64,000 bases of DNA from NCBI GenBank assembly GCA_964036045.1, contig OZ038385.1, positions 33,177,129 through 33,241,128 on the forward strand. Reading direction: 5' to 3'. Below, one piece after another: positions 11,597-64,000 of the stretch. Origin of the DNA: Eutreptiella sp. 'Long Island Sound 2002'. Its lineage: Eukaryota > Euglenozoa > Euglenophyceae > Eutreptiales > Eutreptiaceae. Position 1 is the stretch's first letter. Each line of letters opens with the position of its first letter. The position numbers were made by a program, and so were the translations under genes. Below the pieces are notes generated by a model. The model was not told where the DNA came from and ran no database searches. It was given only the letters and a program-made list of their open reading frames with translations.

Positions 11597-11782
11597 CTAT
11601 GCGCCAATTCCTATGGGGGTCTGGACCCCCAAAATAATTGACGCGACCCTATGCGTCAATTCCTATGGGGGTCTAGACCCCCAAAATAATTGACGCCACC
11701 TTATGTTGCAATTCCTAGGGGGGTCCAGACCCCCAAAATAATTGACGCGACCCTATGCGCCAATTCCTACGGGGGTCTGGAG
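11597..11782. repeat. 52-bp tandem repeat with palindromic core, about 3.5 copies
   Basis: Unit starts ('ctatgcgccaattcc' and variants) at 11597, 11649, about 11701 and 11753. Each unit contains the near-perfect palindrome 'gggggtctggaccccc' followed by 'aaaataattgacgc'. The last copy runs straight into the large satellite; its 'ctggaggggggtaaataatt' looks like a hybrid of the two repeats. Confidence 0.85.
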
Positions 11783-14700
11783 GGGGGTAAATAATTCACG
11801 GAGGGGTAAAATGATTCACGGAGGGGGGTAAACAATTCACGGAGGGGTGAAATAATTCACGGAGGGGGGTAAACAATTCACGGAGGGGTAAAATAATTCA
11901 CGGAGGGGGGTAAATAATTCACGGAGGGGTCAAATAATTCACCGAGGGGGGTAAACAATTCACGGAGGGGTAAAATAATTCACGGAGGGGGGTAAACAAT
12001 TCACGGAGGGGCAAAATAATTCACGGAGGGGGGTAAACAATTCACGGAGGGGTAAAAAAATTCACGGAGGGGGGTAAATAATTCACGGAGGGCTAAAATA
12101 ATTCACGGAGGGGCGTAAATAATTCACGGAGGCGTCAAATAATTCTCGGAGGGGGGTAAACAATTCACGGAGGGGTAAAATAATTCACAGAGGGGGGTAA
12201 ACAATTCACGGAGGGGTAAAATAATTCACGGAGGGGGGTAAACAATTCACGGAGGGGTAAAATAATTCACGGAGGGGTAAAATAATTCACGGAGGGGGGT
12301 AAAGGATTCACGGAGGGGTAAAATAATTCACGGAGGGGGGTAAACAATTCACGGAGGGGTCAAATAATTCGCGGAGGGGGGTAAACAATTCACGGAGGGG
12401 TAAAATAATTCACAGAGGGGGGTAAACAATTCACGGAGGGGTAAAATAATTCACGGAGGGGGGTAAACAATTCACGGAGGGGTAAAATAATTCACGGAGT
12501 GGTAAAATAATTCACGGAGGGGGGTAAATAATTCACGGAGGGGTAAAATAATTCACGAAGGGGGGTAAACAATTCACGGAGGGGTCAAATAATTCACGGA
12601 GGGGGGTAAACAATTCACGGAGGGGTCAAATAATTCACGGAGGGGGGTAAAAAATTCACGGAGGGGTAAAATAATTCACGGAGGGGGGTAAATAATTCAC
12701 AGAGGGGTCAAACAATTCACGGAGGGGGGTAAACAATTCACGGAGGGTTAAAATAATTCACGGAGGGATGAAATGATTCACGGAGGGGTCAAATAATTCA
12801 CGGAGGGGGGTAAATAATTCACGGAGGGGTAAAATAATTCACGGAGGAGGGTAAACAATTCACAGAGGGGTAAAATAATTCACGGAGGGGGGTAAATAAT
12901 TCACGGAGGGGTCAAAGAATTCACGGAGGGGGGTAAATAATTCACGGAGGGGTGAAAGAATTCACGGAGGGGGGTAAACAATTCACGGAGGGGTGAAATA
13001 ATTCACGGAGGGGGGTAAATAATTCACGGAGGGGTGAAATAATTCACGGAGGGGGGTAAACAATTCACGGAGGGGTGAAATAATTCACGGAGGGGGGTAA
13101 ATAATTCACGGAGGGGTGAAAAAGTTCACGGAGGGGGGTAAACAATTCACGGAGGGGTGAAATAATTCACGGAGGGGGGTAGATAATTCACGGAGGGGTA
13201 AAATAATTCACGGAGGGGGGTAAATAATTCACGGAGGGGTAAGAAAATTCACGGAGGGGGGTAAATAATTCACGGAGGGGGGTAAATAATTCACGGAGGG
13301 GGGTAAATAATTCACGGAGGGGTAAAATAATTCACGGAGGGGGGTAAACAATTCACGGAGGGGTCAAATAATTCACGGAGGGGGGTAAATGATTCACGGA
13401 GGGGTGAAATAATTCACGGAGGGGGGTAAACAATTCACGCAGGGGTAAAATAATTCACGGAGGGGGGTAAATAATTCACGGAGGGGTAAAATAATTCACG
13501 GAGGGGGGTAAATAATTCACGGAGGGGTGAAATAATTCACGGAGGGGGGTAAACAATTCACAGAGGGGTCAAATGATTCACGGAGGGGGGTAAATAATTC
13601 ACGGAGGGGTCAAATAATTCACGGAGGGGGGTAAATAATTCACGGAGGGGTGAAATAATTCACGGAGGGGGGTAAATAATTCACGGAGGGGTAAAATAAT
13701 TCACGGAGGGGGGTAAATAATTCACGGAGGGGTAAAATAATTCACGGAGGGGGGTAAATAAATCACGGAGGGGTAAAATAATTCACGGAGGGGGGTAAAT
13801 AATTCACGGAGGGGTAAAATAATTCACGGAGGGGGGTAAAATAATTCACGGAGGGGTAAAATAATTCACGGAGGGGGGTAAATAATTAGCGGAGGGGTAA
13901 AATAATTCACGGAGGGGGGTAAATAATTCACGGAGGGGTAAAATAATTCACGGAGGGGGGTAAACAATTCACGGAGGGGTGAAATAATTCACAGAGGGGG
14001 GTAAATAATTCACGGAGGGGTTAAATAATTCACGGAGGGGGGTAAATAATTCACGGAGTGGTAAAATAATTCACGGAGGGGGGTAAATAATTCACGGAGG
14101 GGTAAAATAATTCACGGAGGGGGGTAAATAATTCACGGAGGGGTCAAATAATTCACGGAGGGGGGTAAACAATTCACGGAGGGGTAAAATAATTCACAGA
14201 GGGGGGTAAATAATTCACAGAGGGGTCAAATAATTCACGGAGGGGGGTAAACAATTCACGGAGGGGTAAAATAATTCACGGAGGGGTGAAATATTTCACG
14301 GAGGGGTCAAATAATTCACGGAGGGGGGTAAATAATTCACGGAGGGGTGAAATAATTCACGGAGGGGGGTAAATAATTCACGGAGGGGTAAAATAATTCA
14401 CGGAGGGGGGTAAATAATTCACGGAGGGGTAAAATAATTCACGGAGGGGGGTAAATAATTCACGGAGGGGTAAAATAATTCACGGAGGGGGGTAAATAAT
14501 TCACGGAGGGGTAAAATAATTCACGGAGGGGGGTAAACAATTCACGGAGGGGTAAAATAATTCACGGAGGGGGGTAAATAATTCACGGAGGGGTAAAATA
14601 ATTCACGGAGGGGGGTAAATAATTCACAGAGGGGTAAAATAATTCACGGAGGGGGGTAAATAATTCACGGAGGGGTAAAATAATTCGCGGAGGGGGGTAA

Positions 14701-16885
14701 ATAATTCACGGAGGGGTGAAATAATTCACGGAGGGGGGTAAACAATTCACGGAGGGGTAAAATAATTCACGGAGGGGGGTGAACAATTCACGGAGGGGTA
14801 AAATAATTCACGGAGGGGGGTAAACAATTCACGGGGGGATCGAATAATTCACGGAGGGGGGTAAATAATTCACGGAGGGGTCAAATAATTCACGGAGGGG
14901 GGTAAATAATTCACGGAGGGGTAAAATAATTCACGGAGGGGGGTAAATAATTCACGGAGGGGTAAAATAATTCACGGAGGGGGGTAAATAATTCACGGAG
15001 GGGTAAAATAATTCACGGAGGGGGGTAAACAATTTACGGAGGGGTCAAATCATTCACGGAGGGGGGTAAATAATTCACGGAGGGGTGAAATAATTCACGG
15101 AGGGGGGGTAAATAATTCACGGAGGGGTAAAATAATTCACGGAGGGGGGTAAATAATTCACGGAGGGGTCAAATAATTCACGGAGGGGGGTAAACAATTC
15201 ACGGAGGGGTAAAATAATTCACGGAGGGGGGTAAATAATTCACAGAGGGGTCAAATAATTCACGGAAGGGGGTAAACAATTCACGGAGGGGTAAAATAAT
15301 TCACGGAGGGGTGAAATATTTCACGGAGGGGTAAAATAATTCACGGAGGGGTGTAAATAATTCACGGAGGGGGGTAAATAATTCACGGAGGGGTCAAATC
15401 ATTCACGGAGGGGGGTAAATAATTCACGGAGGGGTAAAATAATTCACGGAGGGGGGTAAACAATTCACGGAGGGGTAAAATAATTCACGGAGGGGGGTAA
15501 ATAATTCACGGAGGGGTAAAATAATTCACGGAGGGGGGTAAATAATTCACGGAGGGGTAAAATAATTCACGGAGGGGGGTAACCAATTCACGGAGGGGTG
15601 AAATAATTCACGGAGGGGGGTAAATAATTCACGGAGGGGTAAAATAATTCACGGAGGGGGGTAAACAATTCACGGAGGGGTAAAAAAATTCACGGAGGGG
15701 GGTAAACAATTCACGGAGGGGTGAAATAATTCACGGAGGGGGGTAAATAATTCACGGAGGGGTAAAATAATTCACGGAGGGGGGTAAATAATTCACGGAG
15801 GGGTGAAATAATTCACGGAGGGGGGTAAACAATTCACGGAGGGGTAAAATAATTCACGGAGGGGGGTAAATAATTCACAGAGGGGTCAAGCAATTTACGG
15901 AGGGGGGTAAACAATTCACGGAGGGGTAAAATAATTCACGGAGGGGGGTAAATAATTCACAGAGGGGTCAAGCAATTTACGGAGGGGGGTAAACAATTCA
16001 CGGAGGGGTAAAATAATTCACGGAGGGGTGAAATATTTCACGGAGGGGTCAAATAATTCACGGAGGGGGGTAAATGATTCACGGAGGGGTGAAATAATTC
16101 ACGGAGGGGGGTAAACAATTCACGGAGGGGTAAAATAATTCACGGAGGGGGGTAAATAAGTCACGGAGGGGTAAAATAATTCACGGAGGGGGGTAAATAA
16201 TTCACGGAGGGGTAAAATAATTCACGGAGGGGGGTAAATAATTCACGGAGGGGTAAAATAATTCACGGAGGGGGGTAAACAATTCACGGAGGGGTAAAAT
16301 AATTCACGGAGGGGGGTAAATAATTCACGGAGGGGTAAAATAATTCACGGAGGGGGGTAAATAATTCACGGGGGGGTAAAATAATTCACGGAGGGGGGTA
16401 AACAATTCACGGAGGGGTGAAATAATTCACGGAGGGGGGTAAATAATTCACGGAGGGGTGAAATAATTCACGGAGGGGGGTAAACAATTCACGGAGGGGT
16501 AAAATAATTCACGGAGGGGGGTAAACAATTCACGGAGGGGTAAAATAATTCACGGAGGGGGGTAAACAATTCACGGGGGGATCAAATAATTCACGGAGGG
16601 GGGTAAATAATTCACGGAGGGGTAAAATAATTCACGGAGGGGGGTACATAATTCACGGAGGGGTCAAATAATTCACGGAGGGGGGTAAAAAATTCACGGA
16701 GGGGTAAAATAATTCACGGAGGGGGGTAAATAATTCACGGAGGGGTAAAATAATTCACGGAGGGGGGTAAATAATTCACGGAGGGGTAAAATAATTCACG
16801 GAGGAGGGTAAATAATTCACGGAGGGGTAAAACAATTCACGGAGGTGGGTAAATAATTCACGGAGGGGTAAAATAATTCACGGAG
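11779..16885. repeat. 5.1-kb G-rich minisatellite, dimeric about 41-bp unit
   Basis: Two monomers alternate almost without fail: one with five to six G then 'gtaaacaattcac' or 'gtaaataattcac', and a second with four G then 'taaaataattcac', 'tcaaata' or 'tgaaata'. Together they give a dimer of about 41 bp and roughly 120 copies. Stops in every frame on both strands exclude coding. The plus strand carries a regular series of G4/G6 runs every 20 bases. A rare variant ('gtgaaatatttcac') appears at about 14287, 15312 and 16028 in similar surroundings, showing that blocks of several hundred bases were duplicated inside the array. Confidence 0.97.
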
Positions 16886-17112
16886 GGGCCACGCGTAGCC
16901 CTTGCGGCTGTGGGGGTGTCCCAGTGCCGTGGGTGGCTAGGGGGGGGGGGGTCGGTCCTAACCCCTTCCTATCTCTTAGCAGCAGCAGGCAAGTCACGGA
17001 GGGGCCACGCATAGCCCTTGCGGCTGTGGGGGTGTCCCAGTGCCGTGGGTGGCTAGGGGGGGGGGGGGGTCGGTCCTAACCCCTTCCTATCTCTTAGCAG
17101 CAGCAGGCAAGT
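16886..17112. repeat. two 113-bp direct repeats at the satellite edge
   Basis: Two nearly identical copies (from 16886 and 16999) of a segment running from 'ggccacgc' through a G-run and 'tcggtcctaacc' to 'cagcagcaggcaagt'. The second copy is joined by the satellite phrase 'tcacggagggg', so the duplication took a satellite end with it. Confidence 0.9.
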
Positions 17113-20587: not shown

Positions 20588-20652
20588 TTTGCCAAGGGGG
20601 TAGGAACACACTGCACCAAAACAGGACGAATCATGTAACTCAGACTGGGTGT
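20588..20652 (-). repeat. split direct repeat B, outer copy (element 3' end)
   Basis: 65 bases starting 'tttgccaagggggtagg' on the plus strand and ending 'cagactgggtgt'; two mismatches to 21096-21160. Flanked outside by 'aatgaac'. Confidence 0.92.
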
Positions 20653-21037
20653 GCCAGACACCGACAGTGCCATAGGGGACAGCGCTGCCCATAGTGTCGC
20701 ACTCACCAGGGCCCGGAGGCGATAGTGACCGACATCTCCCCCCTAGGCGGGGGAAGACCAAACCAGACAAGCAGACGAATCCCGAACCCCCCGTGGGTGG
20801 GTGGGCGGGCAGACATACACTGTCAGGCAACTGTACAACCCCTGCTCGGGACATGAACCTGGACTGGGGGTTGGCTTGTCGACATGCACAATCTCCGGAA
20901 CCCCCGGGACCCGCCCAACCCAGCTCGATGGAGCAACACAACCTGCCATAGGCACCCATCATGCTGCCGACTCAGCCCCCCCCCCCCCCGGAACCCGGCC
21001 AGCCCCCAACAGTCCCCCCCGTGGGAGGGTGGGTGGG

Positions 21038-21160
21038 CGGACAGAAAACTGCCTGAGAATGAAAAGGCAAACAATTGTTTGAGCACAAACAAGGGTTTGC
21101 CAAGGGGGTAGGAACACACTGCACCAACACAGGACAAATCATGTAACTCAGACTGGGTGT
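21038..21160 (-). repeat. internal fused A and B split direct repeats
   Basis: A copy 21038-21097 ('cggacagaaaactgcctgag' to 'caagggtt') overlaps by two T with B copy 21096-21160. This joined unit is the template for the predicted circle junction, and its junction 'aagggtttgcc' is exactly what the two outer ends give when joined. Confidence 0.92.
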
Positions 21161-21399
21161 ACTACTCTCTAGATCGGCCAAGCGAGAAAACTGCCACGGC
21201 GCAGAGGCGTAGTACATCCCCAGAGGCATACCACACACAGGAACCCAAGCAATGCGCCCAAACAAAGCTCATATCCAACAAGGAAGGGGACCAACCCCCC
21301 CCCCCTCCGCATCCATGCACGCATCAAATGCCCAAAGCAGGCCCGGCAAAATTCAATCCAAAGATAAAGAAGCCGCCTCCTCCGTCGCGTCCACGGTGG

Positions 21400-21470
21400 G
21401 CATCGAACCTACGCCCTCCGGGACGAGACCCCCGTGCACTTCCAGTATGCTACAATATCCATGTGAAACC
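21400..21470 (-). repeat. tRNA-like segment (pol III A and B boxes)
   Basis: On the minus strand 'tagcatactgg' resembles an A box and 'gtaggttcgatgcccacc' a B box, about 40 bases apart. The acceptor ends do not pair, so it is not a functional tRNA. A degenerate partner of its first half lies at 21628-21655. It lies in the 3' non-coding part of the split-repeat element. Confidence 0.5.
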
Positions 21471-22079
21471 CATACCAAAACCACCAGCCCCAGGTCGCAG
21501 GCATACCGTCGGTAGGCGAACGACACGCTCCGACCCCGCACCAAGAACAACAACTGTTCATGGGGCTGCCTGCGCCCTCGCCTCCACGGTTCGCGACGGC
21601 TCGCGAGGACGAGCGCACTGCGCGGCCGGGCCCCCGTGCACTTTCAGGTATGCTCCTTCCCCAGCACAGACCCCAACCAAAATAATCCTCCTAGATGGTA
21701 CCCAAGTATTTATCGACTACAACACAAGAGCTACCCATAGCGGGCCGCCACAAGCCACTCGCTCCGGGCAGCGAACCCCCGCTCCCCGCCGCCGGGGCCG
21801 TGGATGATACCATTGTACTATACCGACGATACACAGCACCTGCCACGCAAAACATTCGGCACGCTCCCGCATCACAGAAACATCCATGGGGATATCTCCA
21901 AGTTCAATCCTATCCCCCCCCTGGCGCCTTTCCAGCAAACCCCGCAGGCACCACCACACCGCCTCAGACTCATTGCCTTGGCACAAGCACACGACCCCAC
22001 GGAACTCGACCTTACCAGGATGACGCGGTAGCTGCTCATACACAAGCCACGCCGTGCGCTCAGCCCTGATACGACCCCC

Positions 22080-22285
22080 CCTGAACCCCCCCTGGAGCCT
22101 CGACATCGGGTCCGCGGGCTGGAAACCCGACGGCACCCACAGAACCCGCACCACAGAAAGGAACAAACAAGGCGTCACGCCAAACCACGCAAGACCGTCT
22201 GCTGGGCACCCAGGACACTCTTGGCCCTCACCTGCAAAAGCTGGGCAATAGCCACCTCCGAATCACTCACCAAGGTCACCGTCGT
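22080..22285 (-). CDS. RNase H domain, C-terminal half (split-repeat element)
   Basis: Continues the RNase H begun at 24396-24791. 'VTLVSDSEVAIAQL' carries the third catalytic Asp, and 'LWVPSGFQPADPMSRL' is the typical 'P-A-D-x-x-S-R' end of retroelement RNase H. A TGA after 'VLRGLA' and a frame change near 22165 interrupt it. Removing the 22290-24395 insertion with one ATAT joins the two halves in frame. The whole domain would degrade the RNA of the RNA-DNA hybrid after reverse transcription. Confidence 0.7.
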
Positions 22286-22298
22286 ATATTCCTTTGGC

Positions 22299-22885
22299 TA
22301 CCATCTGTACGTTTCTGGCCGGAGGCGCGCTTTTGTGGCCCACGGTGTTACACGTAAGGTTTTGAAAACGCGTAGAGCACGCACAACGCGTACAACACGT
22401 ACAGACCAAGTAACACGCACAGAACGCTTAGCACGCCGGACACGTGCCTCCAGAGGCACGTGCAGAATTGGAATACCGGACCGCGCAGAACGCGCAGAAC
22501 GCGCAGCACGTCGCTTTGCACACGGGCTCACATCGAGGAGGGGCCGCGTCCTCACAGTTGGGTATCCAGCCTACGCGGTTGTCCCCCAGGGTTCGCACTG
22601 GTCCCATGGGTAGGGATAGCAGAGGCTCCGCCTCCATGATCGTCTCGTTCAAGCCCCCCATTCCACCACACTACTCCTCATCCTCCCCGTCCTCCTCGTC
22701 CTCCTCATCCTCCTCGTCCTCCTCGCCTTCCTCGTCCTCCTCGCCTTCCTCGTCCTCCTCGCCTTCCTCGTCCTCCTCATCCTCCTCGTCCTCCTCGTCC
22801 TCCTCGTCCTCCTTATCCTCCTCGTCCTCCCCATCCTCTTCGTCCTCCTCATGGTCCTCCTCCCACACCTCCTCGTCCTCCTCGT
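22299..22885. other. insertion left part: acidic GAG/GAC repeat and intron-like repeat block
   Basis: 22676-22860 is a near-perfect TCC/TCG triplet array (GAGGAC on the minus strand) just beyond the acidic gene's TAG; it may be its extension if the stop is recent. 22360-22520 repeats 'cgcagaacgcg', also seen in the third intron and at 23860-23960 and 24100-24200. Confidence 0.6.
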
Positions 22886-23806
22886 CTACCTCCATGTCCC
22901 GTGCGCCTTGCACACCTCCATCGCCATGTCCCATGCGGCCATGCGGGCAACCTCCAGGTGGGTGCTGTGGGGGGCGCGTTGGGCGAGGGAGGGCTCGTCC
23001 TCGTCCTTCACACTGGCAGCATCACTGCCCTCCTCGTCCTCCTCCTCCTCCGCCTCCTCTGCCTCCTCCGGCTCCTCTTCCGACTCCTCTTCCGACTCGT
23101 CCTCATCCGAACTCTCCGTGGTTCCCTCATCTTGGATCCACGTCCACAGCCGGTCGCGCGGAATCTGTAGAACATGCAGAACATGCAAGACACATGGAGG
23201 CAACCCCAGAGGCAATACCAGAGGAAGAACGCAGAGCGCCGAGAACGCGCAAAACGCATAACACACAACCAGAGGCAGATCCAGAGGCAACGGAAAAGGG
23301 AACGGATAAAACGCGCAGAACGCATAAAACACCTTTTTGTATTTCAAGTAGCCATCCTTCTTGTTGCGGACGTCCTGCACCACATGTGGCGCACGTGGCT
23401 TGCCCTTCGGGGCCTTGACCTGTGAAAGGGTGCATCAGGCGGTAGGGGACAACAGGCAGCGCAAAATAGTGGTCACATGAACCGCAAACCCGTGAACGTG
23501 GTACACCTGATACGTTGTGAGGTTCGTCAACCAAAATTCTTGCTCCTGCTTGTCCTTGGCCCCTTTCTTCTTCCGATTGACCCATCCGGCATGCCACCCC
23601 GCTGCGACACAAGGGGGTGAGGAGGACAGCGGTGCAAAGCGAGAAGCGAGACGAAAACGGAGACACACACACATACTCGTGGCTTGTTTAATTTGAAAGA
23701 CAACGAAGGCGTCGTGCTTCAGTTTCTCCGGATGCTTCAACTGTCCCAGCTTCCCACCCTTCCGCAACCATTGAGAATGTGTGGCGGGGTACAGGGGTGC
23801 AGGCAT
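22886..23806 (-). CDS. four-exon gene with acidic C-terminus inside the insertion
   Basis: Exons 23806-23677, 23601-23507, 23419-23333 and 23164-22886, about 196 residues. Introns of 75, 87 and 168 bases all begin GT (GTATGT, GTGTAC, GTGTTT) and end CAG. Phases agree at every junction, and the open frame holds across all four exons. N-terminal half is basic and aromatic ('PAPLYPATHSQWLRKGGK', 'WVNRKKKGAKDKQEQEFW', 'RNKKDGYLKYKK'); the last exon is strongly acidic (Asp/Glu/Ser-rich) and ends in TAG. An acceptor-like 'gtgcag' six bases before the ATG suggests an upstream exon; a diverged copy of the first-exon start lies near 24070-24010 ('LAPVYCATHLHWFP'). I do not recognise the protein. A basic domain plus acidic tail would suit a chromatin or nucleic-acid-binding protein, but that is only inference. 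Confidence 0.6.
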
Positions 23807-24395
23807 GGCTCCTGCACCATAAAAGCAGAGCGGCCTATGAATGTTGGGACAAAAACATGCTGCAGAGCACGTAGCACGCGTAGAACGGCTCCAGAGGCAA
23901 CGTCAGAAGCAAAAAACGACAACACACAAAACACCCAACACACGTGGGCAATGTAGCACCAAGGCAAAGGCATAGGCAGAAGGCAATTGTCGTTGGAATA
24001 CGCACGTTTCAGTTCCATTGGGAACCAGTGCAGGTGTGTGGCACAGTACACGGGTGCAAGCATGGGAAAAAAAAATCGGGTGTGGTATGATAGGTGTGAA
24101 GCACTTAGCCCCTGCAGAACGCGTAGAACGCGTAGGAAGACTTCCATAGGCAGACTCAGAGGCACCGGACCGAAACACGCAGGACGCGCAACACACGCAG
24201 CCCGCGTAGCACCAAGACAAAGGCAGAGGCAGGAGGCAATTGTGCTTCTCTCCTCGAAAATGGTTGAATTGAGCTAAACGGATATTTCCATTGCGTCGGG
24301 CACCCTCGAAAACCCCCCGGAAGCACAAAACAATCATAAAAGCAAAAACGCGACAAAATTTCGTACTATGCGTTCTACGCGTGGTAGCCAAAGGA

Positions 24396-25938
24396 ATATC
24401 CCAGAGCCACCGCCAGCCTGACCTCCCAAAACAGGGATTGCACCTCAACAAGCTGCTGGCTCTGTGCCCGCAACCGACGCGCAATGTAGGACCGGACCCC
24501 CAGGAATTCCGAGAAACCCCCCATCCTCCACGAGGGCCCATCATGGGCGCCACCAACAAAAAGCACCAGCCCAGGCCCCTCCCACCACCGACCCAGCAGG
24601 ACAGGGGCAGCCCGCTGAAGCCCCAGCTCCATACACATGGTTTGGATTTGGGCCACTAGAGCACGCCAAGGCTCAGCTGCGATCATCTGTAATGCCACCA
24701 GGGATTCAAGGACTGCCAATGGAGTGTGCCCCCCCCCCCCCCTCCTCCCGGAGCAAACAATAGGCCCCCGCTGCGAAGGGGCACGCCACACCCCCAGGCC
24801 GAACCTGCCAATGAAAGAACCCCAAAAATGATTGCATGAGCCTCCTTTGGGACCGCCAAACCGCCAACCGGAGGGCTACCTCATGCGACCACACCATCCG
24901 TACCAGGAGGTCCAGCCACTTGCCCAAAAAAACCAACTGGGTGGGAGGTTCCAGGACACTCTCCGGGCTGACAAGGAACCCCTCCCAACCCAGGGCAAGG
25001 ACTGTGTTACCCGTATGATCCCGGAAATACCTCTTATCATGATGAATCCACAGAAAATCATCCAGGTAATGCACCAGGAGAATATCGGGGGGCAGCACCC
25101 TCCCCAGGATCCGCGCTAGCGTTTGCTGGCAAATCAAGGGGCTATATTTCCAGCCAAGAGGCAGCCTGCCCAACCCCACCACCCTCCCACTAGGACCGGA
25201 CCGCAGGCGAAAAACCGTGCGAGCCGACTCCGGCAGCACAAAACTCCAAAAGGCATTCTTTAAATCAATATGGGTGCCACACAAGGGCACCCCCGGGTAG
25301 AACGTGACCAGCAGTTTGCTTAACGGCTCCCATGACCGTAGCGAAAATCTCGGGGGGGTGCCTCCATCCAATCCATTTTGTTTAACGCAACTGAGTATTA
25401 CAGAAACCTTCTCGGATGTTTTGGGAATGATGAAGGGCCAACAGGTCGGGGGTAGGTCCTCCGACAAGTCATACAGCAGCCACTGGCGTTTCAACACCCC
25501 AACGAACTTGGTGACCTCATCCGAAACCCAAGGGGGGGCCCCCGGCCGGGCGTTACCCCGACCGTCGATCCAGGGGGTCTCCACATCGAAGTCCCGCAAC
25601 CCCTGCCCATAGAAACCTGGTGGCACCGCTTGCGCCCAAATATCCTCGGGGATGACGTGGCTGCCCACCGGACCCAAGCCATTTAGCAGGATATCCGGGT
25701 TCACCTTAGCAGCCCTTGGGGTGGGGGAGGTGGTGACGTGCAGTAGACCTCTCGAGTCCTCCCGCCTCAGGCCCTGGACAGCCTTAACGAGGGTGCGAGC
25801 CGCCGAAGGCAGGCGGAAATCCTCTGCTGTGCCGAAGACACAATCCACAAACAAGGTAAGCCGCTTAACAAGCACCCACGGGGTAACGCGCAGCTCTGCC
25901 AACAGCCATCCCAGGTGGGGGGTGCAGGCCCTAAGGAA
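24396..25938 (-). CDS. reverse transcriptase and start of RNase H (split-repeat element)
   Basis: Copies element RNA into DNA. The frame follows the recombinase frame directly, separated only by a TAG at 25941-25939. Counting from the Leu at 25902: 'WPFIIPKTSEKVSVIL' (155-170), 'HIDLKNAFWSF' with catalytic Asp at 213, 'LGRLPLGWKYSPLICQ' (fingers/primer region) and 'HYLDDFLWI' (catalytic DD at 281-282). A C14 run at 24729-24742 (G14 in coding sense) ends this frame at a TGA (24708); the next frame continues as RNase H ('LVLFVGGAHDG', where the usual first Asp is Gly, and 'QQLVEVQSLFWEVRLAVALG' with the Glu) up to the insertion at 24395. The RT type, with YLDD and an RNase H after it, fits the DIRS group. 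Confidence 0.85.
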
Positions 25939-27693
25939 CTACAAAAACAGGGGGTCGTCCGAATCCCCACACCCCCCCCCATCCCACAACTCAGGCTGTG
26001 TGATAGGGTCACGGGGGGGGGGGGGGTCGAACAAGTCCTCCGGACCTGGCAGCAGGTCAGCCAAGCTGGGGGCCGGCGGGCCCGTCTCCTGCGCGACCTT
26101 CGGGCCAACACGCCGACGCCTCGCTGGCGCTCCAGCCTGGGCACCGGCTCTGGCCACTCCAACGGTCCCAGCCACACCGCCCCCGCTGGCATGAGCCCGT
26201 CCCCTCTCCATTGAAGGACCCAGCCCCAGCGGCGCACGAGCCGGGCGCGTCTGTAGACACAGGGGACCGCCCACCACTCCAGAGGGCCCCCGCCGTGCTT
26301 GGAGAACCGGGCGTGCGTCCGTCCGCCTCCCCATGTGACCCCCTTGACGCCAGCGTCCCTGGAATTTGGAGCGGGGCGTAGGGGCTCCGACGGAAGGGCC
26401 GAGGGCAAAGGCGGACCCTTGCTTCGCAAGGTCAATCCGGCTGACCCCCCCCCCATCCTCACACCCGGAGCTGTCACAGGAGTCGACCGTAACGAAGGCT
26501 CCACGCACTCCCCTGGATCCGGGGGGGGTCGGGGGGGGAACACCAGGGGCGGGAGCTGCCGAGGAGGATCCGGCGGCTCGCGTTCTTCCCGATAATCCCC
26601 CCTCCCCCCTGCGGCTTTGCGTGCAGCGGGGGGGGGGGGGTCCAACATGTCCTCCGGCCAAGCTGGGGGGTGGAATGCCGCCGTCGGAAGGGGCTCGGCC
26701 TCCGATGGGAACATGTTGGGGGCCCAGACCTCCAGGTGGGAAAGAACCCCGGTTGCCCCCCCCCCCCCCCGAGCCGGGCCCCGTAGGCAGTCGAAGAGGG
26801 CCCACGACTGCTGCGTCCTGGAACGCCGTCGCATACCGCAGAGCGGTCCCGACACTGCGCCAACGTCCCCACCAGAGGAAGAACTGCATCTGGGGGTGGC
26901 GAGCGTAACACGCAGCGCTGCCACCCCTGCGCAGAGAATGCCAACGGCAGTGCCTCCAAGGCGTAGGGCCCAAGACTTCCAGGAACTTGTGCTCCAGCCA
27001 TGCACTGCCCCCAGGCAACAAGTGGTCATTCGGCCGCAGGCCCTTGGCCTCTGCCCAGTGAAGCAGGGCCTCACGATATCCATCCGCCCAGGGCGAGATA
27101 GGGCGAGACTGCCAGCCCTCTTCACCAGTTTTGCAATTCCAGAACCGGAGCCACGGCGGGACTGGCACATCCCCCATGCGGAGCCTAGACACCTCACCAA
27201 CCCGCAGCCAAAGAACCCAGCTAAGCACTGCCACGCAAGCCATAGGCAATGCACCAGGTTGAAGCTCAGCCCTCTCGACGAGGACGCACAAACCCTCTGG
27301 GGGTAGGTAGGGTTGCAAACCCACCTTAGATGCAGCTTGGGCAATGCGCTTGTGCAGTTGCTGTACCGTCGGCCCGATCCAGCCGAGGTCCTCAGCGGCC
27401 CGCAGTGCCGCATTATACCCTCGCAATGTGGATTGCCTCTCTCCCGCCTCCGCTCTAGTCGCCAAGAACCCTGCCAGTATCCCAGCCAACGACGCCTCTC
27501 CAGAGGCCTCCTAGAATTCCGCGATCCTGGCCAACTTCTGCGCATACGCTCTGCGGGTCCCAGCCCGCCACGATCGGGCGGCCCAAGCATCAGGACCGCT
27601 GGGCTCGTCCTCGGTCCCCAGCATGCACCAACGCAACCAGATCCAGCGGAAGGAGCGCGTAACCCCCCCCCCGCTGCGCCGACCTGGCCTCCA
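25939..27693 (-). CDS. tyrosine recombinase (split-repeat element)
   Basis: Integrates the circular DNA intermediate. Seen: an N-terminal SAM-like region ('WAARSWRAGTRRAYAQKLA', then an in-frame TAG at 27513, then 'TRAEAGERQSTLRGYNAALR'); catalytic Arg in 'LWLRVGEVSRL' (about 27204); 'HSLRRGGSAACY' with the H-x-x-R pair (about 26940); 'WWGRWRSVGTALRY' with the active-site Tyr (about 26835). The complete R...HxxR...W...Y set is present. After it comes about 290 residues of Gly/Pro-rich linker to the TAG at 25941, after which reverse transcriptase starts in the same frame. Upstream, a C10 run at 27663-27672 separates this frame from one that leads back towards the gag-like ORF. Placement before the reverse transcriptase is unusual for the group. 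Confidence 0.85.
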
Positions 27694-27755
27694 TCACCGG
27701 CTCCTGTGGGCTCGTAGGGCGGATCACCGGGAAATCCGCCCACCACGGTCGGTGT

Positions 27756-28387
27756 TTAGCTCCAATGGGGACACTGGAAGTGCCAGTGTCGTGCCGGCAT
27801 TGCCGCTCCCTTCTGCGTGCACCTCCTGCAATTCGCCGACGGCTCCGACTCCACCGGGATCCATTCTCCCGCGCGTGTGTGCCAGCTCAGGACTCCGCCG
27901 ACCTCTCTGAATCTCACATTCTTCCAGTGGAAATCGGTCCCCAGGGTGCCCCTGGCTTCCTCCGGCGAGGCATACGGCGACCTACCCTTAGGCTCCTGAC
28001 CCGATGTGGCATTGTACCGCGTCATGTACGCCGTGTGCGACTTGCAGAGCACTTCCCAGATACGGTACGCCAGGACATGATCACAAGGGGGGGGGGAGCC
28101 CCCTGCTCATTGGCCCCTTCATGATTCAGCGGAAGCTGCAGAGGCAGATCGGCGTGCTCGAGGAATTCTTTAAGGGCTCCCACACACAGGCGCATCCATT
28201 GCGTCACCCGTTCTTCCTGGACGAACTCGTCCAAAGCTCCCGGCGTCAGCTCCGGGATGCTCTCCTTCTGCTTGATGCTGGTCTGTTGCAGCTCCATCCG
28301 CAAGTGCTCGATCTCCTGCGCCTGCTGTCTCATGGCAGCTGCCATTGTCTGTACGTCTGCTGATCCCCCATTGTCCGAGTCTCCCAT
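27756..28387 (-). CDS. gag-like protein with zinc-binding motif (split-repeat element)
   Basis: First gene of the element, from an ATG 44 bases inside repeat A. N-terminal half has a short coiled-coil-like stretch ('MRQQAQEIEHLRMELQQTS') and an acidic/aliphatic helix region. A 10-base C/G run at 28087-28096 changes the frame; the second frame continues 'DHVLAYRIWEVLCKSHTAYM' and ends with 'CRRCTQKGAAMPARHWHFQC', a C-x2-C...H-x4-C arrangement like an extended zinc knuckle, then TAA. This combination (helical region plus zinc knuckle, first in the element) is typical of nucleocapsid-type gag proteins. The frame change is either decay or slippage. Confidence 0.6.
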
Positions 28388-28430
28388 CCTGATTGGTGCT
28401 CACACACACACCCCACACAAAAAACAAAAA

Positions 28431-28490
28431 CGGACAGAAAGCTGCCTGAGAATGAAAAGGCAAACAATTGTTTGAGCACAAACAAGGGTT
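28431..28490 (-). repeat. split direct repeat A, outer copy (element 5' end)
   Basis: 60 bases, one mismatch to 21038-21097, ending 'caagggtt' followed by flanking 'ctcacaatgc'. The gag-like ATG lies 44 bases inside it. Confidence 0.92.
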
Positions 28491-38269: not shown

Positions 38270-40009
38270 CTAGATGAACTGGAACTCGTCCTGAAATTGG
38301 GTTGGGTCTTTGGAATGGGACTTTTCCACAAGATCATATCGGTTCATGACCGCGAACGTGGACCGCAGGACGTCCCACATAACGGCTGAGGAGTGAGTGC
38401 TGCTCTGGCTGCAGTTGGGCACATTGGCCTGCTGCATGTGGATGGCTTGCAGAAAAGCCTTGGCAGCCTCCTGGTGTTGGCTCAGATTGCTGAACGCAAT
38501 GCCAAGATTGTATTGTGCTCTTACAAACCCTGGGTTGAGATCGAGAGCGCGATTGTAAGCCACGATGGCATCCTCACTGCGGCGACTGTTTGCCAGCGTG
38601 GCTCCCAACTTGTTCCACAGCCGGGCATCATTGGGGCGCTGCTGCAGCGCGCCTTGGAAACAGGTTACGGCGTCGTCAAAGCTATGGACCATGTGGTGCA
38701 TAACCCCCATGGCAATGTACACGTCGGCATCAGGAGTCGCCGTAGGACCTGCCGCCTGCCGGAACATGTTCAACACCCGAGCATGCAATTTGGGTTGCGT
38801 CACAAAGATATCATAGTCTTCGGCATCGGGGGTGTCCACGGTTGGAGCCTGAGCCATGCCCTTATATTTTGGGTTGCACTGGATCCACTTCTCAAGAGAC
38901 TGCAAGGAATCATCGTGGCGGTTCTCATTCGTGTAGCTTGTGGCAATGGCGAGCAACGCAACGAGATTTTCAGGGTCCAGCCGCAGGCACTCCTGCAGCG
39001 CTAACACAGCACTGGAGTCTTGCTCGTTTTCAGCCTGGGTGGTACCAAGGTACTGCCATGCTGCCACATGGCTGGAGTCCCTCTTCACAGCCGCCTCGAA
39101 GCACAGTATGGCCTCCGATAAGTTGCCAGCTTCAAGAAGTTTCAGGCCCTGCTCGAAAGGCTCTTCACTGTAGTCGTACGCGTTGTTCTCCTGCATAGCG
39201 TAGGTCTTCTGTGTCATGTCGCGGAATTGATTGAGCCAAGCCTCGGCCATACTCTCGGAACCCTCGTCGTGCATGGCCATAGCCTTTTGAAAGGCCGCAG
39301 ACCAGTCCTCCTGATCGAACGCATCACCCAAAACATCACCAAAGACCTGATTCTGCATGTCTGAGGCAATGTCGTGGTCAAGCCAACTTCTTTGCTCGGC
39401 CCCTGACTGCTCCTGCTCCTCCAGCTCCTTCTGCAGCTCCTCAGGCCAGGACCCATCCGCCTGCCTCTCGTACATGTTCTTGCCCGCCAGCCGAATCTCA
39501 TCCGATTTGACTTTCTCAGTGAAAGCAAAAAATTTTGAGGCCGCCTTCTTGTCCTCATACGACTGCTCGTTATCACCAAGCACCATGGCCTGCCCCGAGG
39601 GTAGTGCACATGGGCGAATTTGCTGGTGATTCAGCATCTGCGGTGGACGGGCTGCCATGGGCATGAATGGGGTGGGGGTGAAGATAGGCACCATAGGTCT
39701 AGTGCACACTGGGACAGCGGCTGAGGAGGAAGATGACGAGGACGATGATGATGCCACTGTGCTGTGTTCTGGCAGTTGGGTAGGCATTCCGGAATGTGAC
39801 ATCGGGGGCTGTACGCCGAAGGTGGCAAACTCGGCGTCCCACTTGTGGCCAGCCAGGATGTCCCTGTCTGTGACGGGCATCGCAGCTCCTTGCTGCATGC
39901 CACGCGGCTGTGCAAATGCACTTGCACCCATGGCATTGAAGAGCTGGCCCATGGGGTTGGCCCCCCCTTCACATCCCTCAGCACCCACCATGTTTCCAAG
40001 GAAACTCAT
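38270..40009 (-). CDS. PEX5: peroxisomal targeting signal 1 receptor PEX5
   Basis: PEX5 shuttles between cytosol and peroxisome membrane, binding SKL-type C-termini through its TPR domain. The 579-residue frame is intact and intronless. The ATG at 40009 is preferred because the frame's only earlier start is a non-ATG codon. Seen: Cys13 in the N-terminal 'GAEGCEGG' context, matching the conserved Cys that is ubiquitinated for recycling; three W-x-x-x-F motifs (WDAEF at 57-61, WSAAF, WLNQF), the PEX14/PEX13 docking sites; a ten-Ser run; then TPRs from about residue 280 ('EQGLKLLEAGNLSEAILCFE', 'AWQYLGTTQAENEQDSSAV', 'LWNKLGATLANSRRSEDAIV', 'AQYNLGIAFSNLSQHQEAA'). The C-terminus 'QDEFQFI' ends where PEX5 proteins usually end. 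The stop is TAG, with a TGA five codons later. No close neighbours, so no operon-like context. Confidence 0.95.
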   Translation of the reverse strand: MSFLGNMVGAEGCEGGANPMGQLFNAMGASAFAQPRGMQQGAAMPVTDRDILAGHKWDAEFATFGVQPPMSHSGMPTQLPEHSTVASSSSSSSSSSAAVPVCTRPMVPIFTPTPFMPMAARPPQMLNHQQIRPCALPSGQAMVLGDNEQSYEDKKAASKFFAFTEKVKSDEIRLAGKNMYERQADGSWPEELQKELEEQEQSGAEQRSWLDHDIASDMQNQVFGDVLGDAFDQEDWSAAFQKAMAMHDEGSESMAEAWLNQFRDMTQKTYAMQENNAYDYSEEPFEQGLKLLEAGNLSEAILCFEAAVKRDSSHVAAWQYLGTTQAENEQDSSAVLALQECLRLDPENLVALLAIATSYTNENRHDDSLQSLEKWIQCNPKYKGMAQAPTVDTPDAEDYDIFVTQPKLHARVLNMFRQAAGPTATPDADVYIAMGVMHHMVHSFDDAVTCFQGALQQRPNDARLWNKLGATLANSRRSEDAIVAYNRALDLNPGFVRAQYNLGIAFSNLSQHQEAAKAFLQAIHMQQANVPNCSQSSTHSSAVMWDVLRSTFAVMNRYDLVEKSHSKDPTQFQDEFQFI

Positions 40010-42000
40010 AGCAAAAAGGGTCACACCTGTGAGAGAACGGCGGATGACCTTGAACTTATGTCATGCAGCCCGAACTTTAAAATCCGAGGCACCTTATTTG
40101 GATACGCGGAGTTGCGTTGATCTGGTTTTTAAAATGCACTGTGTGGAATGGCTGAATTGAATGGAGCTCTTCCCCTCTTCCCCTCAGGATTGCCACAATT
40201 CAGCATCACAGGTGGCACGTCACATGATCTCAGCAAATATACAACCTGTGCACACTTCCGTGCTGGCAAACATTTTGACTTGGACGTGTGGTGCGGCACA
40301 CGTGCATGTGTCAAACGCAATGCGAAAAGTAATGAGCAAAGGCTCAACAGTGCCAGAACCACATGATCTGTGTGCAACAGTCAAATGCATGTCCTGGATT
40401 ACTCCCATAGAAAGGCCTCAAAGTGTCTTTCGACGGCCTCTTGATTAGGACAGACTGTCTTTATGCATGTTGTCTTGATTGTCACCCTGCGGTTCACCTT
40501 GACCCTTAGCAAACAAATGGCACGTATGTGTGTGGGGGTGGGGTGGGGGGGCGCCCAATCATTTGAAACAACTTCATGACATACATCACCACTATACAGC
40601 TCTGTTCACACTGCAGCAACGTTTGCTTGATCCACCCCTTGCAGCCATTCCTCCCTCTTTGCATAGCAAGACTATGCACAAATCATGCATCCCTACTGTA
40701 CCCTCCATACCCATGCTCATGCGCCAACCCCTGTGCAAGGGCCCCCTGCAAAGCAAGCTTACAACAGCACACGGAATGACGTACGAGGCACAAGACCATA
40801 GAGACGGCTCCACAGTTTGATTGACCAGCAGGCTTTAGGCGCCCACCCTGGCGGTGCTCTATCCAGCTGGGGCACTGGCGTTCGCCAGCCCGGTGGCCAA
40901 GGAGGAGTTGACATGGGCAGGTCCCATAGGGACCAGCTTGAGGAAGGCAAATATGGTGTAATGTCTATTTCGTGATGCAAGATGGGAACGCCTGAACCAC
41001 GAGAAGACAGAGGTGTCAATGTCCTCATCCCTCGGTAAACCGACAACTTGGGTCAATGTCGATGGTTGCTTCCTTTCTGAAGTAGGGTAGGCCTCTTTTG
41101 CTAGAGGACAGCGCGGCGTCAACAAACTGTGCCAGAGTTCGCCATTCAAACCTATGGGCTGCCAATAGCCAGGGGTGAGCACAGGATTTTCACCCCCACC
41201 TGGAACACATTAGTCAACTTTGAGTATTGTTTGGGCAGTTGTGTATGATTCAAGGTATCTAGTGCACACGGAGGCAGAGATGCTCTCTAGGATGTGATGC
41301 CCCTATTGGTGTGGCTTTGAGATTGTGGAGGACATGCAACCACGATGCACAATTATTTTGGGTGTGGTGGCCACAAACCCCAAGGGAGACACAGCCATAA
41401 TCAACACCAATTTGGGTGTGGCCCTGAGATGGCAAGAGATACGGAGCTACAACCCCCACTGTGAGACCGGACAAGCCACGTTTTCTCTGGCTCCTTATAG
41501 ATCTCAATCTGAAGACTGTCTGCAAGGGCTTTGCAGCACTTCACACACCACGTCGTTGTTGGGAGATGGTGCATAGGCCAGAGTGCATGGACGAGCCCAC
41601 AGCACCAAGCACGACACGCCAATGCCCCCCCCCCCCACACACACAGCCACAGCACGACACGACACAACCCTACTTGTGTACTTCTATGACCGCGCTGTGT
41701 TGGCCTATTTCGGCCTTCCCTGTCTCCCGCGCCTCATCAATCTAAATGGGCAACGCCTGCGATTCAAGAGTGGTCTTATCCTTGATCATCTTCAACATCG
41801 GGAGCCCAGGGAAGTGGCCCGGCACCACCTCGACAGGTACGCCGGCGACACTACCACCACATTCTTGACCGTTGCATCCAAATCCATTGCAAAAGTCCCA
41901 CAACATGTCTGTCAAGTCAAATGTAGACACTAAGTTCTATTGCTTGTTGACAAGGCACCTCGAAGAGGGATGGGGCAGCTGGGTGCTAATATCTATTGTG
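40010..42000. other. PEX5 5' flank and spacer
   Basis: No supported gene. A minus-strand frame at 41742-41930 ('LWDFCNGFGCNGQECGGS') is protein-like but has no known motif. PEX5 transcription must start in the first few hundred bases here; no TATA box is obvious. Confidence 0.4.
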
Positions 42001-62005: not shown

Positions 62006-63919
62006 TCACTTCTTACGGTGGGACATAGTCTCAGCACGGGTTAGGAGCTGCCCCTCGTTGTTCTCAACGAGGTAAGTGCGGAAGATGGGGTTGATACTCC
62101 CATCTGGTTGTATGAAGGCTGACATAGGTTCCCAGGTCGCCTCAGATAGCCCATAGCCATCCCACAGGGTTAGGAATTTCCAGCCCTGTTTATACTCGTG
62201 GCGAGCAATACCTGCAACCACGTAGTAACCATCGACTGCCATTTCATTGGCAGTCATCTCTTCGAGTTTGTCTGCCTCCTCTGGACTGGCAGCGTTCTCT
62301 AGGTCTATACGCTCGACCTCACTGTCGCTGAGGCGCCACTCATCCCAAGACAAGTTGTCAGGGGAGTGATAGTGCCTCAACTGCTTAGGTGCACACAGCA
62401 GTTCACCACCTAGACGTGGACTGCACCTGACATGGTTCCTGGATCCATCTATCCTGATGATACCATAGGGTCCAAAGTAAGGGTCCTGTAGGCAGTTACG
62501 TGGCAAGGAGGGTAGGCGTGAATGGTGTACCAAAACAAGGTCACCAACCTTGAAGCTGGCAGGTTGCCGTAGGCGGTTCCGTCGGCTCTGTTCACGGTCA
62601 CGAATGTGTCTCAGGTTAGTACCAGCCTGGTTAGCCAGAGACTGCCTGTGTTCCAGCCAATCTCCCACAGGGCTCTTGAAGTCCTCAGGAAAGGGGGTTT
62701 TGAAGAACCAAGCAGGTCGTCCTCCATGGAACAGTTCGTGGGGGGTGAAACCCGTAGAAGAGCTCCGCTGTGAGTTCATGGTGAGCACTGCCCAGGGCAC
62801 TAGGCGTACCCAGTTTTTGGTGCGCTCCTGTTTCATCAGGATTCTTAGGTTTTGCTCCACCACACGGTTCTGTCTCTCACAGAGAGGGTTAGACGTGTGG
62901 GTATAGGGCACACCTGTGGTTACCTCCACGTTGAGGGCATTTAGTACTCGTTTGTACCACCCAGTGTCACGGCGGATGCGTACATCTTCATCAGAGTGCA
63001 CCTGCTTAGGTGCTCCATAGGGTTCGAACCATTGTTCGACCAACATTTTCACAGTCTGCTCACCTGTGATTTTCTTATTGCAAGGGAACACACGGGTGAA
63101 GCGAGATAGACCACAGGTGACCACGAGGCAACTATCATAGCCGCCAAAGCTTGGTAGGCCGTGGATGAAATCCACGTAGAGAAGAGAGTTAGCACAATAG
63201 GGTATGGGTAAGCTGGAGATCAGGCCCCTATCCCTACTGTCCCTCTGCTTGCTGGCATGACAGCCACAAGCATCCACAATGGTCTGCATACGCGACCTCA
63301 GTTCAGTCAGGGTTAGACTAGAGTAGAAACACTCACGGAAGAAGTCCACTGAGCGATTAGCGCCAGTGTGACCAGAGCTGAGATGGGACCACTGTAGGCA
63401 CCCATCCAGTCGTGCCTCAGGCACCACCATTCGGTCCTCGTAGAAGAGGTACTGATTGTTTTTATACCACTGGTGCCCGTCAATGACACCGGGTTCGAGA
63501 CCAGTGCTGAGGGTTTGGAGAATTTCTTCATACTCTGACTGATAGTCGGTTAGACTCCAACCCTCCAGGATTCCAGCAGTGCGCATGGACAGGTAAAGCT
63601 GGACATCCATACGCTGGAAAACCTCTCTGGCAAGCGCCTCAGAGCTCTCACCAATAAGTGCATCGAAGTTGTTGCGCGATATATAGTCAGACAGTTCATT
63701 CTTTATCCCGCGGATATGATGCACTGTCAGCCTGAACTGGCTCAGGTAAGTCCACCACCGTTTTAGCTTTGCTTTCTCTGGTGGTGGGCCCTTCTGAAAA
63801 GACTTCACAGACTCTTGGTCACACAGCCAGACAATAGGGTTAGATCCCAGTGAAGCATTTTCGGCGGGGGTGATGTCCGTGCGTCCACAGAAAAATTGGA
63901 AAAATTGAAAATCCTTCAA
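62006..63919 (-). CDS. Ty3/gypsy chromovirus-type pol: RNase H end, integrase, chromodomain
   Basis: 637-codon frame ending in TGA. Residues about 53-82 ('WWTYLSQFRLTVHHIRGIKN', then 'ELSDYISR') are the end of RNase H or its connection. Integrase: zinc-binding His179/His184 and Cys218/Cys220 (CxC here, usually CxxC), then catalytic Asp250 ('YVDFIHGLP'), Asp310 ('VHSDEDV') and Glu348 ('NPLCERQNR'). Later 'PASFKVGDLVLVHHSRL' is the GPY/F-like C-terminal segment, and the last 70 residues form a chromodomain ('HEYKQGWKFLTLWDGYGLSE', 'ATWEPMSAF'), which targets integration to marked chromatin. An in-frame TAG about 25 bases upstream of the frame start, close to the window edge, means the reverse transcriptase lies in another frame or beyond 64000. 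The integrase reading frame itself is intact. Confidence 0.92.
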   Translation of the reverse strand: MKDFQFFQFFCGRTDITPAENASLGSNPIVWLCDQESVKSFQKGPPPEKAKLKRWWTYLSQFRLTVHHIRGIKNELSDYISRNNFDALIGESSEALAREVFQRMDVQLYLSMRTAGILEGWSLTDYQSEYEEILQTLSTGLEPGVIDGHQWYKNNQYLFYEDRMVVPEARLDGCLQWSHLSSGHTGANRSVDFFRECFYSSLTLTELRSRMQTIVDACGCHASKQRDSRDRGLISSLPIPYCANSLLYVDFIHGLPSFGGYDSCLVVTCGLSRFTRVFPCNKKITGEQTVKMLVEQWFEPYGAPKQVHSDEDVRIRRDTGWYKRVLNALNVEVTTGVPYTHTSNPLCERQNRVVEQNLRILMKQERTKNWVRLVPWAVLTMNSQRSSSTGFTPHELFHGGRPAWFFKTPFPEDFKSPVGDWLEHRQSLANQAGTNLRHIRDREQSRRNRLRQPASFKVGDLVLVHHSRLPSLPRNCLQDPYFGPYGIIRIDGSRNHVRCSPRLGGELLCAPKQLRHYHSPDNLSWDEWRLSDSEVERIDLENAASPEEADKLEEMTANEMAVDGYYVVAGIARHEYKQGWKFLTLWDGYGLSEATWEPMSAFIQPDGSINPIFRTYLVENNEGQLLTRAETMSHRKK

Positions 63920-64000
63920 CCCATCACCCCAACCTCTCCAAGTACTACATAAAGTCTATTCCAAACTTCGATTCCATTGGAGTTGCGTAAATGGTCTTGG

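Follow-up and report, generated by a model that had tools for sequence, protein, structure and literature searches.

A multi-copy tyrosine recombinase retrotransposon of a photosynthetic euglenid, probably built like VIPER and TATE

We analysed a 64,000-nucleotide window of the genome of the photosynthetic euglenid Eutreptiella sp. 'Long Island Sound 2002' (positions 33,177,129 to 33,241,128 of contig OZ038385.1, assembly GCA_964036045.1; contig C8, 80.6 Mb, in our locus names). With a probability of about 0.7, we read positions 28490-20588 of the window as one copy, old and broken, of a multi-copy retrotransposon that encodes a tyrosine recombinase (YR) upstream of its reverse transcriptase (RT) and is built like the kinetoplastid elements VIPER and TATE. 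Kinetoplastids are relatives of the euglenids. The element is real and well supported, and it is not a new kind, its gene order being already known. What makes the find valuable is its host group, together with the families related to it, its short forms and the fact that its ends can be read.

Repeat layout and end junction

The element lies on the minus strand and runs, 5' to 3' of its coding strand, A1-gag-YR-RT-RNase H-B1A2-385 nt-B2. The features are as follows (window positions).

28431-28490, minus: A1, 5' terminal repeat, 60 nt, outer end AACCC (repeat comparison, ends in copies)
27756-28387, minus: gag-like gene (CCHC-like motif), spread by a frameshift over two overlapping frames (codon-position test)
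26820-27720, minus: YR region with catalytic R, H, R, W and Y; borders approximate
25939-26819, minus: proline/glycine-rich stretch linking YR and RT, in frame with YR, no known domain
24706-25938, minus: RT with YLDD (Pfam RVT_1)
24397-24720, minus: RNase H, first part, in a frame other than that of RT; first conserved aspartate replaced
22289-24396, no strand assigned: nested transposon, ~2.1 kb, inverted ends TTCCTTTGGCTACCA, TA duplication, foreign to the retrotransposon
21717-22288, minus: RNase H, last part (..SDSEVA.., ..PADPMSR..), with in-frame continuation
21096-21160, minus: B1, inner copy of the 3' repeat, 65 nt (repeat comparison)
21038-21097, minus: A2, inner copy of the 5' repeat, 60 nt (repeat comparison, ends in copies)
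20653-21037, minus: spacer from A2 to B2, 385 nt
20588-20652, minus: B2, 3' terminal repeat, 65 nt, ends GGCAAA (repeat comparison, flanks)

The 65-nt direct repeats of pair B (20588-20652 and 21096-21160) were 97% identical, and the 60-nt direct repeats of pair A (21038-21097 and 28431-28490) were 98% identical. The inner copies B1 and A2 overlap by 2 nt (TT) and are positioned after RNase H. Joining the outer ends recreates the inner junction, which on the coding strand reads GGCAAACCC, and B1A2 is a copy of the junction of the circle proposed below. The two repeat pairs and this junction confirm the A-genes-BA-B layout claimed in a preliminary description of the stretch, which had missed the orientation of the genes, the nested transposon and the broken frames. 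The element combines split direct repeats, in which the end junction recurs internally, with genes for an RT and a YR, which places it among the YR retrotransposons (order DIRS). Its terminal repeats are direct, not inverted as in DIRS1-like elements.

In the stretch after RNase H, we also observed two 34-nt repeats (76%; 21412-21445 and 21614-21647). One of them adjoins GGTTCGATGCCC, which resembles a tRNA B-box. Neither at this place nor elsewhere in the window did tRNA or Rfam scans give a match.

Genes and domains

Gag, YR and RT-RNase H (RT-RH) showed a third-codon-position excess and are under constraint. The RT matched Pfam RVT_1 (E 5e-9). RNase H scored under the Pfam cut-off (RVT_3), and its motifs were seen in relatives. 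The YR region comprises part of the open reading frame (ORF) 25939-27510 and an N-terminal part in other frames. For this region Pfam gave no more than a weak SAM-like match, and a first structure model, built on nine closely related sequences, was of low quality (pLDDT 37.8). A structure model of the YR matched Cre and lambda integrase. We assign the YR because conserved residues, codon pattern and fold agree. These results bear out the order gag-like, recombinase, RT, RNase H that had been read from the sequence. The gag gene encodes ~206 aa in copy L025. Profile searches with Pfam found no methyltransferase match in RT/RH relatives or downstream of RNase H, and no Dnmt3 domain in the element.

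Copies elsewhere in the genome

We searched the assembly (2.28 Gb, 2,205 contigs) with the 573-nt tail of the element and found at least 43 matches (40 of 662 candidates scored). Twenty loci of ~9.9 kb were fetched for comparison. In 14 other fetched copies we found, as in the window copy, the two ends, the inner junction and a body collinear with that of the window copy; one of the 14 (L024) has a right end that is changed in its last bases. L025 lacks the right end, L021, L023 and L028 stand outside the end counts (5' end not found; L028 also without the inner junction), and L013 and L020 have no 5' end within the fetched stretch. Because 14 other copies show the ends and the inner junction, the repeat layout is more than chance. 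Alignment pieces were ~78-95% identical to the window copy and collinear with it, which indicates the same gene order in these copies. The preliminary description had proposed a search for copies with the same ends and order, and none of the 14 had a different gene order.

The nested transposon splits the RNase H gene of the window copy at 22289-24396 and was absent from 18 of 18 other fetched copies spanning the site (of 13 such sites viewed, 12 were clean and L027 somewhat different). The gag and YR frames of the window copy are shifted, in addition to the replaced RNase H aspartate, and interrupted frames also occur in other listed copies. The window copy is thus old and broken, and its description as complete holds for the ends and fails for the genes, whose frames are broken and whose RNase H is cut by the 2.1-kb transposon. 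An unrelated nested transposon and broken genes at this locus might be taken to mean that the gene order arose by chance at this single locus, where two elements were joined into a mosaic by nested insertion or misassembly. We give this explanation almost no weight, since 14 copies elsewhere have the same ends and a collinear body, and seven uninterrupted copies measure 5,793-5,827 bp. The remaining copies are longer by insertions or, once, shorter.

The nested transposon has 15-bp inverted ends, many ACGCGTTCTACGCGT-like motif copies and an acidic (GAG/GAC) repeat stretch (22629-22943); it resembles a DNA transposon of the Tc1/mariner or a similar type, with no recognised transposase. L009, L011 and L013 carry inserts of 1.6-2.4 kb at the same C-run then GCTGCACCC (element position ~ window 26617-26630), with a target repeat of ~12-14 bp. 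The L009 and L011 inserts have a common 3' end and unequal 5' length, as for 5'-truncated LINEs with a C-run target, and an RNase H-like motif was seen in the L009 insert by eye only.

Ends, homogenised repeats and short forms

Among the 16 copies with a 5' end, the left end read AACCC in eight, ATCCC in six and otherwise in two. All six ATCCC copies have AACCC at their own inner junction, so the T of the ATCCC ends most likely came from the target. At the other end, GGCAAA was followed by C in 33 of 35 copies, whose flanks are not all independent (p 9e-18 versus the C frequency of the window); L024 and L025 were outside these 35 because the right end is altered or missing. The exceptions were the window copy (G) and L032 (T). 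The ends and flanks fit a strand exchange between a putative junction GGCA-AAC-CC and a target A(A/T)C. The right flank common to L020, L022 and L023 reads CCACAAAA(A/C)GTGGG; either the same repeat was hit, or these are duplicates of one insertion.

The repeats are more alike within copies than between them. For A1 and A2 (16 copies), the within-copy sum was 40 against an expected 109.7 (reached in 1 of 20,000 permutations), a contrast that two indel-bearing copies inflate. For B1 and B2 (18 copies), the sum was 51 against an expected 67.8 (14 of 20,000 permutations). Single copies showed the opposite trend: L024, L015 and L023 for B1/B2, and L019 for A1/A2. Such likeness within copies is expected if a single template serves to rewrite both repeats during the cycle.

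We also found the A2-B2 region on its own. L046, an A2-spacer-B2 element of 506 bp, has different flanks and the ends of the full element (AT/CCC ... GGCAAA/c, with the border at the slash), and L047 contains a tandem array in which three inner junctions follow one another at 504-bp intervals. The preliminary description held that repeats occurring without the genes would speak against it, and these two cases are in part of that sort. We do not take them as a refutation, because the short element has full-element ends. They parallel SIRE, which in T. cruzi is the A2-B2 region of VIPER (PMC6681497).

Related families

Protein searches, with ~8,000 candidates scored in each, found at least 51 RT relatives and at least 28 YR relatives, and at least 60 with the YR profile. 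A tree of 41 RT cores (12 of 53 RT rows were left out as too short) fell into seven groups, of which one consists of a lone long branch. YR before RT occurs in one other family within a single gene model: P0101 holds a YR, then a linker and RT start in common with P0037 (43% over 343 residues). The tail of P0096 (YR) overlaps the head of P0008 (RT) in 25 of 27 residues, which gives YR before RT in another family. The YR-RT pairing of P0107 with P0015 and of P0056 with P0006 is indicated only by contigs of equal length, a weak link. One scan of viral contigs found no relative.

The YR, gag and RT had no close named relatives in the searches made, as would be expected of an entirely new retroelement order, without a described relative of such gene order. 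Such a new order is very unlikely, because the layout, the gene order and the short A2-B2 form are all published for VIPER/TATE (PMC12278014, PMC6681497).

Comparison with described elements

VIPER and TATE have a gag-like gene, YR and RT/RH, with A1 at the 5' end and B1, A2 and B2 at the 3' end, and no target duplications are reported for them (PMC12278014). The euglenid element has the same order (gag, YR, RT/RH) and the same arrangement of repeats (A1 ... B1A2, B2), and it has a short A2-B2 form in common with VIPER. VIPER gag has a CH-box in some species (PMC12278014, PMC6681497), and the euglenid gag has a CCHC-like motif. The two differ in gag length (~206 aa here, 492 aa in VIPER) and in host. 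In 2013, VIPER was described as known only from kinetoplastids (PMC3783388), and passages of another paper mention E. gracilis in connection with Merlin DNA transposons and report VIPER for T. cruzi only (PMC8101967). Among the papers listed in our literature searches, which took in few subscription papers, no title or opening of an abstract describes a YR retrotransposon or VIPER in a euglenid. VIPER was missing from the comparison set of the preliminary description (DIRS, Ngaro, PAT, kangaroo). Of the undescribed lineage proposed there, the split-repeat YR retrotransposon stands and the undescribed order does not, this order being published for VIPER/TATE (PMC12278014).

An alternative is descent from PAT/Toc/kangaroo, Ngaro or DIRS, with YR-before-RT arising independently and the VIPER likeness convergent. 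Homoplasy of such features has been described (PMC4157794), and the integrase/Pol ORF order is shuffled in DIRS elements of Symbiodinium (PMC5890265). The Symbiodinium DIRS-Dnmt3 elements resemble ours in their A-coding-B-A-B repeats and occur in two forms that differ in integrase/Pol order; they carry a Dnmt3 domain in Pol, whereas the Pfam search found none here (PMC5890265). Ngaro likewise has A1-ORFs-B1A2B2 repeats (PMC8547959) and no methyltransferase, but its inner repeats lie downstream of a YR that is the last gene, after RT/RH, whereas the YR stands upstream of RT here (PMC4157794). PAT, Toc3 and kangaroo share the split direct repeats, and kangaroo and Toc3 are algal; these elements contain a methyltransferase, as DIRS and PAT are described to do, and Pfam gave no such match for ours (PMC4157794). 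In kangaroo, the YR is inverted and the inner repeats lie between methyltransferase and YR (PMC4157794), whereas our YR is in sense and before RT, with the inner repeats after RNase H. The relation of the host to kinetoplastids and the recurrence of YR-before-RT in other families also speak against this descent. Overall, we consider it unlikely, though far from negligible.

Several observations weigh against our preferred reading of a VIPER/TATE-like build. Both YR and RNase H fall below the Pfam cut-off, and sequence searches of PDB with the YR gave nothing at E up to 10. The A and B repeats are 60 and 65 nt long here versus 173 and 219 nt in T. cruzi VIPER/SIRE, and the A2-B2 spacer is 385 nt versus ~30 bp (PMC6681497). 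Without the two indel copies, the A1/A2 signal drops to 30 versus 37.2 (105 of 20,000 permutations). The window copy itself has G at the right flank, L020, L022 and L023 have one flank in common, and the flanking C could be the element's own last base. We read the element as VIPER-type by layout and gene order, a comparison with VIPER, Ngaro, PAT and DIRS made by description rather than by sequence.

Proposed mechanism

The element probably works like a VIPER-like element. Its RNA would be reverse-transcribed, with the inner B1A2 copy serving as the template on which the ends are completed and fused. Following the model published for repeats of this kind, the product would be a closed circle with the junction GGCA-AAC-CC. 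The YR would then exchange strands between this junction and a target A(A/T)C, with no target duplication. We infer the RNA, the circle and the strand exchange; integration of a circle by the YR would fit the end letters, the homogenised repeats and the one short A2-B2-only insertion. If the two junction copies within a circle recombined, a small A2-B2 circle would be set free, and the 506-bp element and the 504-bp tandem array may be leftovers of such release.

A wider proposal is that the euglenid elements and VIPER/TATE derive from one YR-before-RT retrotransposon of the euglenozoan ancestor, and that the B1A2 junction doubles as a resolution site. The element's own YR would split circles into a coding circle and a small, self-integrating A2-B2 circle, giving rise to SIRE-like elements and tandem arrays in both host groups. 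We put this forward tentatively, as possible with the odds somewhat against it.

Surroundings in the window and assembly

We observed an intact 596-aa ORF for PEX5 (peroxisomal targeting signal 1 receptor) at 38270-40060 on the minus strand; its matches did not set kinetoplastid relatives apart from animal ones. An ORF at 62006-63955 encodes an integrase core (rve) and ends, as judged by eye, in a chromodomain-like part; it is probably a Gypsy-type LTR retrotransposon. About 125 tandem copies of a 41-bp unit with strong strand skew occupy 11779-16888. Elsewhere in the assembly, L055 (G000:C6:11515500-11518600) holds a 694-aa ORF that by eye resembles a bacterial-type Rho termination factor; it has an N-terminal hydrophobic segment and is possibly plastid-targeted. 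Plastid-type atpA and atpB genes, assigned by eye, are also in the assembly. A mitochondrial ATP synthase alpha exon (L056) had chain 6tdu as its first match (336.8 bits, 11 differences in 167 residues), ahead of 6f5d and 8ap6 (288) and of bovine-type chains (235), and a beta exon (L057) ranked them likewise (263, 251 and 225). The structures 6tdu and 6tdy are from Euglena gracilis, and 6f5d and 8ap6 from Trypanosoma brucei. By these genes the host is a photosynthetic euglenid close to E. gracilis but distinct from it. A green alga or a dinoflagellate had been considered as host; the spliced-leader pattern of dinoflagellates had 0 matches in the window. Some contigs may be foreign, as a small contig (L048) carries a bacterial-looking ATPase.

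Implications

The same build in a euglenid would date the VIPER type further back, in the direction of the euglenozoan ancestor. The many copies whose ends can be read allow a test of how split direct repeats, circles and recombinase act together, and the short forms suggest a concrete origin for SIRE-like short elements. These elements could also help to sort the unclassified repeats of euglenids, which make up 32.73% in an E. gracilis assembly (PMC11252322).
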